Source: an uncultured Archangium sp.
GTDB lineage: Bacteria > Myxococcota > Myxococcia > Myxococcales > Myxococcaceae
Assembly: GCA_903905455.1 (NCBI GenBank)
Contig: CAIVGN010000075.1
Coordinates: 1-64,000 of the forward strand
DNA length: 64,000 nucleotides
Direction of reading: 5' to 3'
Shown here: positions 1 through 23,733 of the stretch, in pieces
Numbering within the stretch: the first letter of the stretch is position 1
How the letters are laid out: every line of letters begins with the position of its first letter
Notes under the pieces: model-generated
The model's input: the letters and a program-made list of their open reading frames with translations, nothing else
The model's database searches: none
Told to the model about the DNA's origin: nothing
Program-made: the position numbers and the translations under genes

Positions 1-3000
1 GGTCACCGTGGGCGCGCCGTTGGTGCAGGTGTTGGGGTCCGAGGTCACGCTGGTGAAGGGCTTGTTGGTGATGCCGGTGAACGAGATGTCATCGACCTCC
101 CAGCCCTTGGCCGCGGCTGCGTCGTCAGCGCCGATGCGGAACCGGAAGAGGATGGTCTGGCCCGCGTAGGTCGTGCCGAGGTTCACCGTCTCGAGGTTGA
201 ACGTGGGGTAGTTCGCGCTCTTGCCCACGAAGGCAGGCAGCCCGGCGATGGGGTTGGTGCTCTGGTTCTGCGAAGAGGTCAGCGTGCCCGTGTAGCCCGG
301 CGTCGACTGCGCGCCCACGTCGGTCCAGTTGAGGCCGTCGTCGGCGCTCACTTCGATCACCGCGCCGTCGAAGAACTCGGTCGGGCTCTGCTCGAAGTCG
401 AAGCGGTGCTTGAAGGTGATCACCAGCGGCGCCGCGCTCACCGTGAGGGGCGGCGAGGTCAGCCAGGTGTCGGCCGGCGACGAGGGGTTGGGGCCGAACC
501 AGAAGTGCTGCGTGGCCGTCGACTGGAACATGCGGAAGTTGCTGCCCGTGTTCCCGCGCGGGTCGGACGCCGAGGTCCACTGCGACATGGGGGCCTCCAC
601 GTCGTCCAGGCGGCTGCTGGCGGGCACCACGTCGAAGTTGAGGCGGAACATCGACACCAGGGTCACCGGGCCGCGCGTGAGCGAGGCGTCGGTCACGCTG
701 ATGTTGAACATCGCGCCCTGCGGCCCGGCCACGTCGGCCAGGCGCACGGGGAAGCTCAGGGTCGAGGTGCCGAAGGGCGCGGTCGAAGGCAGCGGGAGGC
801 TCGCCCCCGACGGGAAGGTGACGCCCGCGCTGGTGGTGACGATGGCCACGTTCGCCGCCGAGACCGTGCCCGAGCCGCTGTTGCGCACGCGCACCGTGAG
901 CACGCCCTCTTCGTTCGCGTCGAGCGTGCCGTCGTGATCGCAGCTCATGCGCGAGTCGTCGAGCGTCACCTCGGTGATGGTCAGCGCGTTGCCGATGGTG
1001 AAGCTCTCGACGACCGGCGTGTTGTCCTGCGAGTCGCGGTCGGGGGCCACCGCGCCCACGCCCATGCCGCGCCGCGCGAAGGCCGCCCAGAACGCCGCGA
1101 AGTCGTCCGGGTCGTTGGCCGCCGCCACCGCCAGCACCGCGTCCCGCGCGTCGACGAAGGTCGGCATCAGCGCCGTCGCCTTGTAGGCCGCCACCAGGTA
1201 CTTCTTCATGCGCGCCTGCGCCTGGGGGAACGTGTAGCGGCTGTCGCGCAGCAGCGCGACGTAACACTCCCACAACATCGCGGCCCACACCTCGCCGGTG
1301 TTGTGCACCTCCGAGTTGCTCGCGCCCGAGGCCCCGAAGGCCACCGGCGCCGTGGTGGGCAAGCGCACGCCGTCGGCGATGTGCTTGAAGGTCAGCGGGT
1401 TCTTCGCGAAGTCCACCGACAGCGGGTAGCGGCGGAAGCCGTAGTAGTAGCCGTTGGTGTCCGCGGTGTACCCGGCCCAGCCCGCGAGCCCGAAGGCCCC
1501 GGTCCAGTTCGTGTTCGAGGGAAGTTGGGCGTCGGACTCCCGGGCGACCAGCAGCGCCGCGTGAAAGTCGGCCCAGCCCTCGCCCATGCCCACGGCCTGG
1601 AGGTTCGAGATGCCGTTGCCGTCACCGATGAGGCGGTTGGAGATGTAGTGGCCCCACTCGTGGGCCACCACGCCGTTGTCGAGCGTGCCGTCGCGGTTCT
1701 TCGGCGCACTGCGCACCAGGGTGGCGGTGGTCGCACCCGAGGTGAGCATCGCCTTGAGCGCGTTGCCCGAGTTGAGCGAGACCGACATCGCGGGGATGGT
1801 GATCACCCCCAGCGGCGGGTTCGCGTCGGGCATGGACATCGGCCCGCCGGCCATGTTGTTGGCGATGATCACCCCCGCCGCGCCGGCCGCCTGCGCGCCC
1901 CAGGCCTTCTGCGCGAAGGTGCACAGCCCGCGGTCGATGAGCACGATCTTCCCCGCCGCGCTGCCGGCCGGCCACGTCGTCGCGCAGCCGTCGGTGGGCG
2001 TGGCGTCTCCGTCGTTGGCCAGCATCAGAGTCCCCGTGAGGTTGTGCGCCTGGAGCCCGAACTCGGCGCCCAGGGTATTGAAGCTCTGCGGGGTGCCGGC
2101 GCTCGCCGACAGCGTGGCCGCGTTGGCGCCGTCGAAGACGTACATCTGCATCTGCGGGCTCTGGCCGTCAGAGGGCGTCGACATGTTGGCGTTGCTGCGG
2201 CCCGAGTAGTCCTGCGCCTCGGACAGCACCGGGTCGTTGCCTGCACCGCCGCGCATCAGGTTGTTCTTCTGCCCGTTGCCCGCACGCTCGTCGAAGCCGT
2301 CGTCGTAGTACCAGTCGTGGAAGAAGTTGTTGTTGAAGAACAGCTGCGTCACCGCCGCCTGCCGCTGCGTGGCGTTCGCCTCGGGGCTGACGTCGAAGTC
2401 GTAGAGGTAGTCGAAGGCCCCCGGCGCGCTCGTGGCGCCCATCAGGTCACCGGCGCCGTAGCCGTTGCCCGCGCGCAGGTCGGCGTAGGCGATCACGTTG
2501 TTGCCCAGGGTCTGCGTCGCGCCCGGCGCCAACCACGGGTCACCCGTCGAGAGGCCGGCGTGATCGAGCGTCACCAGCGTCTGCGGCTGCGAGCCCGGGT
2601 CGAAGTTGCTGGGCGTCGCCGTGGGGTACGGCGTCGCGCCGAGGCCCTGCGGCCCGTCGTCCGGCAGGAAGGTGACCGGGTCGGCCCACACGCGGTAGCC
2701 GAAGGCGTCGGCCTTGAGGTCCTTGCGGTAGAGCACCGCGCCGTCCACCGCCGAGATCACGAACGAGAGGTAGTCGGTCGCCTGGTCGGAGACCGGGGCC
2801 TGCAGCTCCACGTAGAAGCCGGGCACCACGCCCTCGGGCAGGGGGAAGTAGACCGGGCGCGCGCGCACCGGCGTCGTCGAGCCCGCCAGCGAGAAGTGCT
2901 CGTAGCCCCCGCCGAACTGGCCGAGGTCCTGGAGCGCCGCGGGGTCGAGCGAGCGACCGGCCAGCGACTGGAACGCCGCGCCCACCGCCGACGCGGCCGA

Positions 3001-19323: not shown

Positions 19324-19824
19324 TCACCAGCGGTTGAGAAAATCACTCATCTCGTCGAGCGCCTTGAGGCGCCGGGCGTGGACGTCCTGGAACAGCAACT
19401 CGAGGGCCGGCGGCACCCGGCCGGCCACCAGCAACAGCTCGCGGGGCAGCTCGACGATCTCCACCTGGCCCTGGGCCATGGCCGAGCACTGCCGCCCGCC
19501 GACGCCCGAGAGCGCCTCGCCCTCGCCGACGGTGTCGCCGCGCCGCGCGAAGCCCAGCTCGGCCGAGTCGCGATCGCGTCGCGCGAAGAGCCGCACCTCG
19601 CCCGCCATCACGAAGAAGAGCGAGTGGCCCGGCTCGCCCTGCTGCATCAGCACCACCTTGTCGGGGTAGCGGCGCAGCGAACCCTTCGCGAGAGCGGCCG
19701 CGCCCAGCAGCTTCACCAGCGGCGCCGAGGACAGCACCGGGTCCGCGGCGATCAACTCCGACACGTCTGCCCGCTTGAGCTCCAGCTTCAAGATGGGCGT
19801 GCTGTCACCGAAACGCTGGCTCAC
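19324..19824 (-). CDS. Cyclic nucleotide-binding domain protein (stand-alone)
   Basis: 166 aa from a GTG that overlaps the stop of the esterase gene by 4 bases. The central part (VVLMQQGEPGHSLFFVMAGE, then ARRGDTVGEGEALSG) is the beta-roll of the CRP/cNMP-binding fold. The phosphate-binding cassette is degenerate: GEGEALSG is present but the usual RxA arginine is not evident, so ligand binding is uncertain. No DNA-binding domain follows, so it is not a CRP-type regulator. Possibly a signalling adaptor. Confidence 0.8.
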   Translation of the reverse strand: MSQRFGDSTPILKLELKRADVSELIAADPVLSSAPLVKLLGAAALAKGSLRRYPDKVVLMQQGEPGHSLFFVMAGEVRLFARRDRDSAELGFARRGDTVGEGEALSGVGGRQCSAMAQGQVEIVELPRELLLVAGRVPPALELLFQDVHARRLKALDEMSDFLNRW

Positions 19825-21965
19825 CGTGCCTCAACCTCCGCCGCGCTCAGCGTGCGGTACGTGCCGTCGATGTGTTCCATCAACTCGAACATGGCGTCGC
19901 CGTAGGGCGTCGCGTCGGTGGGAGTGTAGCCCTTTCGGTTCACCCAGAAAGTGCCCGAGTGGCACTCGCGCTCCCAGTCGGGCAGTTGGTCGATGTCGGT
20001 GCCGGTGTCGTCGCTGTTCCGACAGTCGCGGGCGCCGGTGCGCTTGTTGACGAAGCAGCAGCGCCCGTTGGGGAACACGTAGATCACCGGGCGCAGCTGG
20101 AGGTTGGGGTCGGTGACGAAGTTGTTGGCGATGATCGCCGCCCCGACGAAGCCCGAGGGGTCCATGCCGTAGCCGTGGAGCAGGTAGGCCACCGGGTAGC
20201 GGGCGTCGGCGTTGGCCGGGTCGCCGTAGCCCGGGGGCAGCGAGATGGCGTACTCCCACTTCGCCCCCAGCTTCTGCGAGACGAAGGTCTCGGTGCGGTA
20301 ATCGGCCTGGGTGCTCTGGCCGAACACGGCCTGGGGCCTCGGCGCGTTGGGCCACATGTAGGCCACCCAGTTGAAGAGCACCTGGAAGCGACTGGCGGCC
20401 TGCTCGGTGGTGCCCACGTGATCGCCTTCGCCCACGGCGAGCTCCTCGTCGGTGCGCGACTCCTTGCCGTAGAGGGTGATCAGGTCCTTCGGCAGGCTCT
20501 TCCACGAGCGGTTCCAGGGGTTGAAGTTGCCGGAGCTGCGGTCCTTCATGCCGGGAATGTCGGTGAAGCTGCGGTACTCGCCGACGAGCCCATCGCGCGC
20601 GGCCTTGACCGCGGTGAACAGGTTCCGGGCCATGAGCCCCAGGTTGAAGATGTCGTGGATGCCGCCATCGAGCAGCACGTTGAGCCGCGCCATGGCCACC
20701 TTGTCGAGCTTCTTGAAGTTGCTGCGGCCGTCGAGCGCGAAGAGGCGCTTGCGCCCCTCGATCTCGTCGTACACGCCGTTGCCCTCGCCCTTGTCGGCCG
20801 AGCCGGCGACGCCATCGAGGCCGAGGTCGCGGAACGGCTCTCCCTGCTCGTAGCGCCAGTCGAGCTCCGTGCCCTGGGGGTTGGTGAGGGCCTCGTAGTC
20901 GTCGTGGTTGGCGTCGGTGGGCGTGGGGCTGGCGGTGGTGGTGCAACCGCCGGCGCCGTCTTCGAAAGCGTTGGCGCAGCCGTCGGCGCCCACGTCGTCC
21001 CAGCGCTCGTGCGAGTTGTTGAGCACCGGCTCGCCGTAATCGCGCCGCCCGTTCCCGTTGTAGTCGAAGGCGAGGAGGATCGACGCGGGCATGAGGCGCT
21101 CGCGGCACGGGTCGGTCTGGCCGGCGTGGCTGAGCCAGAAGAGCGTGTGGTCCGTCTTGTTGGCGCGTACCGCCCCGCCCTTGTTCGCGCAGTACGCGTC
21201 GGCGAAGGCCCCCTGGCCCGCCACGGGCAGGGGGGTGATGATGTTCGCGGGGTTCGAGCAGAAGTCGACCTTCTCCTGCCCGGTGCTGCAGAAATAGAGC
21301 TCCTGGTTACCGTCGCAGAAGGTGATCGCGTCGTAGTGCCCGTCGGGGTTGAACTCGGCGTTCTTGAGGCCCGCGACGTGCTTCGGGTGGGCGCACAGAT
21401 CAGCCGGCGGGTGGCGCAGCAGCTCCGGGTCGATGCCCGGGGGCGCGACCGGCGAGTCGGGGTTCTCGGTGAAGAAGTTCCCGTAGGCCAGCATGAGGTC
21501 CGTCATCATCTCGATGTAGCTGTCCCGATCGAACGTCCCCCCGTTGTTGGTGATGTGCCAGTGGTTGAAGTCGTTGGGGTGCTCCCAGGGGCCCGGCGTC
21601 GCCACCCGGGGCCTCGCGCACGCCTCGATCACCGCCGGGTCGTTGAGCCGCGTGGGGTCGGCCTGCATGATCGCCTCGAGCTCTTCCTTCGAGCAGAAGC
21701 CGCCGGTCACGAAGCGATCCATGAAGCGCTGGAAGAAGGCCGCGTCGAGCGGGCCGCCGAGCGACGCGACGCCGTCGACCTTCTCGGGGTTGGTCGAGAT
21801 GAGGGCCATGCCGCCGATGGCGCCCATCGAGACGCCGCCCAGGGCCCGGTACGTGGTGCGGATCTTCGGCACCACCGGCGTCGGCTCCGGCTCCACCGGC
21901 CTGGGGCTGCACGAGAGCGCGAACAAGGAAAGAGCAGCAGCCGCGAGGGGCAGAAGACGACGCAC
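19821..21965 (-). CDS. Large lipoprotein esterase of the alpha/beta-hydrolase fold, apparently circularly permuted
   Basis: 714 aa from GTG at 21963-21965, chosen because AGGAG lies 7-8 bases upstream and a lipoprotein signal follows at once (ALSC, Cys19). The nucleophile elbow GVSMG (Ser46) lies right behind the signal, while the strand and oxyanion motif YLLHGYG (His597-Gly598) and the segment FELMEHIDGTYRTL are at the far C-terminus. In D-type esterases the order is the reverse. Candidate acid and His occur between (LLDGGIHD, EGDHVGT). The middle holds EF-hand-like acidic loops (FDYNGNGRRDYGE) that may bind calcium. Probably cell-surface; substrate unknown. It overlaps the cNMP-binding gene downstream. 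Confidence 0.75.
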   Translation of the reverse strand: MRRLLPLAAAALSLFALSCSPRPVEPEPTPVVPKIRTTYRALGGVSMGAIGGMALISTNPEKVDGVASLGGPLDAAFFQRFMDRFVTGGFCSKEELEAIMQADPTRLNDPAVIEACARPRVATPGPWEHPNDFNHWHITNNGGTFDRDSYIEMMTDLMLAYGNFFTENPDSPVAPPGIDPELLRHPPADLCAHPKHVAGLKNAEFNPDGHYDAITFCDGNQELYFCSTGQEKVDFCSNPANIITPLPVAGQGAFADAYCANKGGAVRANKTDHTLFWLSHAGQTDPCRERLMPASILLAFDYNGNGRRDYGEPVLNNSHERWDDVGADGCANAFEDGAGGCTTTASPTPTDANHDDYEALTNPQGTELDWRYEQGEPFRDLGLDGVAGSADKGEGNGVYDEIEGRKRLFALDGRSNFKKLDKVAMARLNVLLDGGIHDIFNLGLMARNLFTAVKAARDGLVGEYRSFTDIPGMKDRSSGNFNPWNRSWKSLPKDLITLYGKESRTDEELAVGEGDHVGTTEQAASRFQVLFNWVAYMWPNAPRPQAVFGQSTQADYRTETFVSQKLGAKWEYAISLPPGYGDPANADARYPVAYLLHGYGMDPSGFVGAAIIANNFVTDPNLQLRPVIYVFPNGRCCFVNKRTGARDCRNSDDTGTDIDQLPDWERECHSGTFWVNRKGYTPTDATPYGDAMFELMEHIDGTYRTLSAAEVEAR

Positions 21966-22087
21966 GGGGGAACTCCTGATGGGTGGGGCCGGACAGAATG
22001 TAGGAATTTCGCCCATGAATAGCGAGGGCGGCTGACAGTCGAGTCATGCGTGCCACGACATTCGTGTCGGGCCGGAGGTCGAACCCC

Positions 22088-22861
22088 ATGAAGCGATTCG
22101 CGTTGTGGCTCACCCTGCTGCTCTCGAGCACTGTCTTCGCGGAGGGCGGCAAGTTGGTGAGCGTCTTCGGCCCCGGCGAGCAGACCACCTACGAGGTCAG
22201 CTACCTGGGCATCGTCGCGGGTCGCGCGCAGCTCACCGTCGGGTGGAAGATGCAGCAAGCCGGTCGCGAGGTGTGGCCGCTGGTGTGCGTGGGCGAGACC
22301 ACGCAGGTGGGGTTGATCTGGCCCATTCGCGATCGCTTCATCTCCTACTGGGACCCGCTGGAGCGCCGCCCCGTGGCCTCGGACTTCTTCGTCGACGAGA
22401 ACAAGAAGCGCCGCAAGGAGCACTACGCCTATGACTCCGAGAGCAAGCAGGCGATCGTCACCCGCCAGTCGGAGGGCCGCGAGCCCTCGGAGCGCCGCTT
22501 CGACATCGAACAGAACACCCTCGATCTCGCCGCCGCGGGCTTCGGCCTGCGCAACACCCCGCTCATCGAAGGCGCGGTGCACGAGATGCCCATCTTCACC
22601 GGCGTGAAGACCTACCGCATGCAGGCCACCGTGGTCGGCCGGGAGAAGCTCGAGTCCTCCCTCGGCGATCTCGACGTCTTCCGGGTCACGGTGAACGGCG
22701 ACTTCAACGGCAACATGAAGACCGCCGGGTTGATCACCCTGTTCTACACCGCCGACGACAAGCAGCTCCCGGTGCGGGCCGAGGCCGAGTTCGGGTTCGG
22801 GAAGATCCGCATCGACGCCGTGCAATACCTGCCGGGCCACCGCTACACGGGAGAAGAGTGA
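22088..22861 (+). CDS. DUF3108 domain secreted protein, first of two tandem copies
   Basis: 257 aa from ATG at 22088, with GGAGG 9 bases upstream; an in-frame ATG at 22046 lacks such a site. A signal peptide (MKRFALWLTLLLSSTVFA) is followed by a DUF3108 beta-rich domain: GPGEQTTYEVSYLGIVAGRA at the N-terminus and ARAEFGFGKIRIDAV-like C-terminus. DUF3108 proteins are periplasmic and uncharacterised; their fold resembles LolA/LolB-type half barrels by family knowledge. The stop TGA overlaps the ATG of the second copy, so the pair is cotranslated. Confidence 0.8.
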   Translation: MKRFALWLTLLLSSTVFAEGGKLVSVFGPGEQTTYEVSYLGIVAGRAQLTVGWKMQQAGREVWPLVCVGETTQVGLIWPIRDRFISYWDPLERRPVASDFFVDENKKRRKEHYAYDSESKQAIVTRQSEGREPSERRFDIEQNTLDLAAAGFGLRNTPLIEGAVHEMPIFTGVKTYRMQATVVGREKLESSLGDLDVFRVTVNGDFNGNMKTAGLITLFYTADDKQLPVRAEAEFGFGKIRIDAVQYLPGHRYTGEE

Positions 22862-23733
22862 TGCGCACGCTGCTGCCGCTGATCCTGGTCTCGACCTTCG
22901 TCTCCGCGGCCCCGCCGCTGCCGGCCCGCGTGGAAGGCGTGGTGGCGCCGCCCGCGGCCAGGCAGCGCGCCCCCTTCCCCACCGACGTCGAGTGCCAGTC
23001 CCTGGGCTCGGTGATGAACCCCATCCCCTTCGGGCCCGGCGAGACCCTGGAGTTCGACATCGACGCCCTGGGCGCCCGCGCCGGCAGCATGACCATGCAG
23101 ACCCTGCCGGTGCACGACGGCGTGCTCCCGCTGGAGGTCTCGGTCGCGACCAACACCTTCTTCAGCAAGGTGCGCCGCGTGAAGGCCGTCGCCAAGAGCG
23201 AGCTCAACCCGAAGACCCTGCGCCCCACGCGCTACTTCGAAGACGCGCAGGAAAACGACGTGCACCGCGTGGCCGACGTCACCTTCAACAAGAAGAACCT
23301 CGCCCACCTCGTGAGCTCCGTCGACGCGCACACCTGGCAGGAGAACCTGCGCTTCGGCAACGACATCAGCGACGTCGCCAGCGCCATCCATCTCCTGCGC
23401 GCCATCCCCATGAAGGAAGGGCAGCGGCTGTGCTTCGACGTATACGGAATCCGGCGCATCTGGCGCGTGTGGGGCACGGTGCAGCCGCGCGAGCACGTGT
23501 CGATGCCGGTGGGCGAGTTCGAGGCCTGGCACCTCGCCGGTGAAGCCGCGCGCCTCGACATGCCCGACGCGCGCCGCGAGGTGCACGTGTGGGTCAGCGA
23601 CGATGCCCGCCGGCTCCCGCTCGCTGCCCTGGGGATGATCGACCTGGGCGCGGTGCGCGCCTCGATGAAGTCGTTCTCCAGGCCGGGCGAGAAGACCACC
23701 CGCGCCGAGAACAAGGGCAACATCAAGTGGTGA
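22861..23733 (+). CDS. DUF3108 domain secreted protein, second tandem copy
   Basis: 290 aa, ATG overlapping the previous TGA. A signal peptide (MRTLLPLILVSTFVSA) is followed by an extra linker and a DUF3108-like domain starting at PFGPGETLEFDIDALGARAG, where the first copy has the corresponding FGPGEQTTYEVSYLGIVAGRA. Overall similarity is low, so the duplication is old or the pair forms a heterodimer. Likely periplasmic. Tail-to-tail with the gene at 23737, 3 bases apart. Confidence 0.75.
   Translation: MRTLLPLILVSTFVSAAPPLPARVEGVVAPPAARQRAPFPTDVECQSLGSVMNPIPFGPGETLEFDIDALGARAGSMTMQTLPVHDGVLPLEVSVATNTFFSKVRRVKAVAKSELNPKTLRPTRYFEDAQENDVHRVADVTFNKKNLAHLVSSVDAHTWQENLRFGNDISDVASAIHLLRAIPMKEGQRLCFDVYGIRRIWRVWGTVQPREHVSMPVGEFEAWHLAGEAARLDMPDARREVHVWVSDDARRLPLAALGMIDLGAVRASMKSFSRPGEKTTRAENKGNIKW

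Follow-up and report, generated by a model that had tools for sequence, protein, structure and literature searches.

We find that a 714-aa protein encoded in the window (the whole stretch of DNA that was analysed, 64,000 nucleotides) carries the parts of an esterase in circularly permuted order. Very probably it belongs to the CE1/esterase-D branch of the alpha/beta hydrolases and is an exported serine esterase and lipoprotein, in which a permuted core forms one domain and bears a lid with EF-hand-like loops. Our computations establish the permuted order and its conservation, the predicted fold, the position of the lid and a single clade of permuted proteins. The initial annotation had proposed a circular permutation, and the proposal is borne out by profile pieces that abut in swapped order, by an alignment that spans the junction once the sequence is rotated, by a model that resembles the structure 2D80 and by conservation across Myxococcota. 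We think it reasonably probable that the family represents an independent second permutation of the alpha/beta hydrolase fold, cut where the type-2 PHB depolymerases are cut, fixed once in Myxococcota and always accompanied by a lid of unsolved fold, and that permutation and lid together mark a new family of envelope esterases.

The gene occupies the span first given for it, 19821–21965, to which we add the strand that had been omitted (minus); the frame begins with GTG at 21965 and its stop codon is counted in the span (Table 1). An alternative start, an in-frame ATG at 22016, would yield 731 aa, or 17 additional residues. Because a stop codon sits shortly upstream of this ATG, we rule out a missed upstream segment, and the HG motif lies at the C-terminal end in all 50 relatives. 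A pseudogene is rejected because the frame is open and conserved across dozens of genomes. The motifs GVSMG (residues 44–48), YLLHGYG (594–600) and FELMEHIDGTYRTL (693–706), together with Cys19, stand where they had been noted. GVSMG is the sole GxSxG of the protein and YLLHGYG contains its sole HG, which confirms the earlier statement that neither motif has a second copy. Shuffled copies of the protein show the same short-motif order in 0.5% of cases, making it fairly unlikely by chance; the evidence that counts is the conservation of this order in 50 relatives.

Table 1. Features of the esterase gene and its downstream neighbour, in window coordinates.
Feature	Positions	Strand	Evidence
Downstream gene, cyclic-nucleotide-binding domain protein	19324..19824	-	PF00027 E 3.9e-14; neighbours the esterase at most loci in the window's family
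Permuted esterase, entire gene, 714 aa	19821..21965	-	Reading frame; family alignment
Lipoprotein signal, residues 1-19, predicted lipid-anchor Cys19	21909..21965	-	Cys in 49/49 filled rows; model helix 5-17
Residues 34-69: strands 5 and 6 with nucleophile elbow	21759..21866	-	Model DSSP; aligned to 7xrt 144-204
GVSMG, residues 44-48, predicted catalytic Ser46	21822..21836	-	S46 50/50; opposite the mutated residue of S150A entry 7xrv
Lid, residues 70-428, between strands 6 and 7	20682..21758	-	Predicted alone pLDDT 92.8, pTM 0.89; no PDB fold or sequence match
EF-hand-like loop 1, DYNGNGRRDYGE, residues 301-312	21030..21065	-	D301 50/50, N303 48, N305 48, G306 49, D309 48, E312 50
EF-hand-like loop 2, residues 324-335	20961..20996	-	D324, D328, G329, E335 kept in at least 46 rows; looser pattern
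Acidic loop 3, residues 380-391	20793..20828	-	D380, G382, D384, G385, D391 nearly invariant
Residues 429-540: strands 7 and 8, last core helix	20346..20681	-	DSSP; matches 1gkl second half
D438, proposed catalytic acid after strand 7	20652..20654	-	50/50; aligned with Asp of canonical DCGSRDEYNL
H516, proposed catalytic His after strand 8	20418..20420	-	50/50, in GDHVGT
Residues 549-705: strands 1-4 and pre-nucleophile helix, now C-terminal	19851..20321	-	8bf3 125-262, Z 8.4; profile 540-623 on 7xrt 25-106
YLLHGYG, residues 594-600, oxyanion strand	20166..20186	-	H597 and G598 50/50
FELMEHIDGTYRTL, residues 693-706, helix preceding the nucleophile strand in canonical order	19848..19889	-	Aligned to 7xrt 120-143, just ahead of 144, the start of the N-terminal piece

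Comparison with a feruloyl esterase locates the cut. The family profile matches the chain of 7xrt with an E value of 4.3e-24 and in three pieces, where profile positions 540–623 fall on residues 25–106, positions 673–695 on 120–143 and positions 33–93 on 144–204. Along 7xrt, the protein's C-terminus comes first and its N-terminus second, the pieces abut at 143/144, and the alanine of the S150A mutant 7xrv lies exactly opposite Ser46. Re-joining the C-terminal part to the N-terminal part, as suggested at the outset for structure prediction, produces alignments that run across the join. Against the canonical esterase L036, a stretch spanning the junction scores 18.1 bits in rotated order, compared with 4.5 + 4.1 bits in native order. 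Rotation raises the Pfam score of the distant member L049 from 44.4 to 55.1 bits and that of the window's protein from 29.0 to 33.3 bits, and the best Pfam stretch of the rotated window protein (149–210) crosses the junction. With its lid removed, rotated L049 aligns to 7xrt in one run (13–173 on 32–178, 66.9 bits), with no more than a short loop needed to bridge the two parts. In profile comparisons (hhalign), the rotated family aligns to canonical esterases over its full length (probability 100, E 4e-47) while the native order covers one half (1.7e-28), the canonical set having been chosen with the rotated profile, a choice that favours the rotated alignment.

Structure prediction of the 714-aa protein, also suggested at the outset, gave a confident single-chain AlphaFold2 model (pLDDT 93.6, pTM 0.90). 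The structure 2D80, a PHB depolymerase of Penicillium funiculosum that shares the permuted order, represents the only kind of solved structure matching along the whole core: VIA-align superposes 245 residues of 2d80_A (Z 15.7), running from 37..704 of the model on 30..338 of the chain, although the fit is not tight (rmsd 4.4, 11% identity). Canonical esterases score Z 8 to 9 at best and match one half each, with 1gkl 942–1084 covering model residues 35..544 and 8bf3 125–262 covering 547..708 (Z 8.4). According to these superpositions, Ser46 and His597 would lie in one active site.

The model's secondary structure shows how the core is arranged. Strand 5 (residues 40–45) and strand 6 (65–69) precede the lid, strand 7 (429–435) and strand 8 (495–499) follow it, and a core helix (520–535) leads through a linker to strands 1–4, within residues 556–632, and to a helix at 688–702. 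The initial annotation had described a middle of about 500 residues with Ca-like loops that joins the halves; the acidic loops are there, but the middle is no mere joiner, since it holds strands 6–8, the proposed catalytic Asp and His and the 359-residue lid. Judged from sequence, S46, D438 and H516 supply the predicted Ser-Asp-His triad of PF00756 / CE1-esterase D. The hhalign alignment is poor beyond strand 8, and we therefore assign H516 from its conservation, its location behind strand 8 and the similarity of its motif.

The arrangement is a property of a whole family. A tblastn search of Myxococcota returned matches in 62 of 195 genomes, including a few short ones to ordinary esterases, and we aligned 50 full-length family members (alignment A1). 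Every one of them keeps the same order of elements: lipoprotein Cys, GxSMG (S46), lid, D438, H516, HG (H597), the YRT helix and the end of the chain. S46, D438, H516, H597 and G598 are invariant (50/50), and the C19 column contains Cys in all 49 filled rows. All 50 members also match PF00756 (E <= 0.01), to which the window's protein scores 27.7 bits against a gathering cut-off of 22. In the canonical order of PF00756 the oxyanion HG stands ahead of GxSxG; here the nucleophile is N-terminal and the HG C-terminal in 50/50 relatives, and the family is therefore a permuted variant rather than an ordinary member of PF00756 / CE1-esterase D. When 26 rotated members are placed in a tree with 34 canonical esterases, the permuted proteins come out as a single group (SH-aLRT 99).

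The distribution of the family is patchy. Within the window's own taxonomic family, 25 of 96 genomes contain a match and several genera with large, complete genomes have none, an absence that may explain why these proteins were overlooked. Beyond Myxococcota, coverage comes from a wide scan with a single-protein query, which detects close relatives only and found three loci, all myxobacterial. Viral contigs contained no relative, and plasmids gave one weak match, confined to the C-terminal part. Two genomes carry two tandem permuted esterase copies each (L188 in G058 and L189 in G057, with spacings of 3704 and 2578 bases). We rule these pairs out as intermediates of the permutation; they are recent copies, because both copies are permuted and 98–99% alike over the 300 bases compared.

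Half of the protein consists of the lid (359 residues), whose mean column identity is 42%, compared with 38% for the whole protein. It contains one exact EF-hand loop (301–312) and two looser acidic loops. The exact loop follows the pattern DxNxNGxxDxxE, recurs in 49 of 50 members and appears in 0.5% of shuffled sequences; the model shows it without flanking helices. Searches with the lid fold gave only E > 1 in Foldseek against the PDB and viral models and nothing at Z 2 in VIA-align, and hmmsearch of the PDB with its sequence gave no match. The modelled lid is thus without a match among solved structures, though failure to find one is no proof that the fold is new. Across 189 Myxococcota genomes, a search for the lid without the permuted core found only two short partial matches. 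These lie in other open frames (G005:C54:1741-1917 and G165:C244:9627-9791) and correspond to the lid's acidic-loop part; possibly the acidic loops occur elsewhere.

The gene's surroundings are partly conserved. The esterase stop codon and the start of the downstream gene share four bases (19821–19824), as in operons with coupled translation, and two adjacent DUF3108 genes at 22046–23733 are divergent from the esterase. The cyclic-nucleotide-binding gene and the divergent DUF3108 genes are also neighbours of the esterase at most loci in the window's taxonomic family, and several families of the order have a DUF3108 gene adjoining it (L029, L030, L032, L041, L059). In the deeper branches that were examined, the genes around the esterase did not match the cyclic-nucleotide-binding or DUF3108 neighbours. 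The neighbouring genes (YggS-like, Maf, DUF3108, DUF507, UvrC) offer no lead to the esterase's substrate.

We weighed three other accounts of these data. The family might be a divergent branch of the type-2 extracellular PHB depolymerases, both going back to one permutation event. The order and the cut are identical in the two groups, 2D80 is the one solved fold that fits the whole core, and type-2 enzymes are present in Myxococcota as well (L100, L101, L102). However, the family's sequence shows little kinship to the type-2 catalytic domain: 2d80 is absent from the family profile's matches at E <= 1, whereas CE1 chains reach 4e-24, and hhalign assigns a probability of 2–25% against nine type-2 proteins, compared with 100% for the rotated family against canonical esterases. 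Rotated type-2 proteins, for their part, match type-1 depolymerases at 4e-28. This comparison of one permutation with two rests on nine type-2 sequences and on the canonical set picked by the rotated profile, and a common origin appears unlikely. From these alignments we favour two separate permutation events in the same loop, because the family's sequence belongs with PF00756/CE1 and not with the type-2 depolymerases.

A domain-swapped dimer, in which the N-terminal half serves one active site and the C-terminal half another so that the chain is not internally closed, had been offered as one of two explanations. The order of the halves alone would permit it, but a single chain yields a confident closed model, which superposes on the 2D80 chain as a single unit; with a model complete in one chain, swapping need not be invoked, and we regard it as very improbable. 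It is somewhat easier to imagine, though still improbable, that the permuted fold has lost its catalytic function and now acts in the envelope as a structural protein or a calcium-dependent binding protein. A lid that is half of the protein and conserved as strongly as the whole would suit such a role, as would the adjoining DUF3108 genes, which encode a domain of unknown function; the invariance of S46, D438 and H516 argues against it. A catalytic protein thus remains our preferred reading, most likely a lipid-anchored, exported serine esterase with a calcium-stabilised lid, and probably an esterase of the cell envelope.

For this predicted esterase, the strand order in sequence would be 5-6-(lid)-7-8-1-2-3-4 instead of 1-8. 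A short linker, at about residues 541–555, would join the old termini, and the new termini would have been created in the loop that runs from the YRT helix to strand 5. The chain would then fold as one ordinary hydrolase domain, with the triad Ser46-Asp438-His516 and the oxyanion strand HG597-598. The lid, inserted where lids normally sit, behind strand 6, may cover or shape the site and select the substrate, presumably an ester, and its acidic loops may bind calcium; Cys19 would anchor the protein in the membrane. The permutation may have arisen by tandem duplication followed by loss of the ends.

To our knowledge, the alpha/beta hydrolase fold is rarely found circularly permuted in nature. 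A second case with its cut in the same loop points to only a few sites in the fold that accept new ends, this loop among them, and the tolerance of new ends between helix and strand 5 is testable on enzymes with structurally known canonical relatives. The literature that we searched contains no report of a permuted feruloyl esterase or of a myxobacterial permuted hydrolase. Strands 1 and 2 are permuted in some hydrolases, according to a review (PMC11878206).

The topology has a precedent, and the sequence family has none. The initial annotation missed that precedent, the type-2 PHB depolymerases and 2D80. In its original paper, 2D80 was reportedly described as a circularly permuted hydrolase. 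We located the type-2 proteins of Myxococcota and plasmids with a short consensus sequence; a PF10503 search for type-2 depolymerases led, at the loci inspected, to type-1 or other unpermuted proteins, and type-1 depolymerases (L103–L109) are common in the same phylum. Type-2 PHB depolymerases (defined in PMC2666664) likewise have their nucleophile near the N-terminus, but their sequence affinity is with type-1 depolymerases and other unpermuted esterases, and they have no such lid. The CE1 / PF00756 esterases, such as the Bacteroides feruloyl esterase BT_4077 (7XRT/7XRV) and the XynZ and XynY domains, share with the family its sequence family, nucleophile motif, oxyanion HG strand and pre-nucleophile YRT helix. 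Relative to them, the family has its halves swapped, is a predicted lipoprotein and carries a 359-residue lid between strands 6 and 7. The search of myxobacteria, as had been proposed, turned up unpermuted esterases (L036, L065 and L142) alongside the permuted family; these have the canonical order without such a lid, their DCGSRDEYNL resembles LDGGIHDIFNL around the proposed catalytic acid, and L036 and L065, the latter from the window's own genome, are the best-scoring unpermuted relatives.
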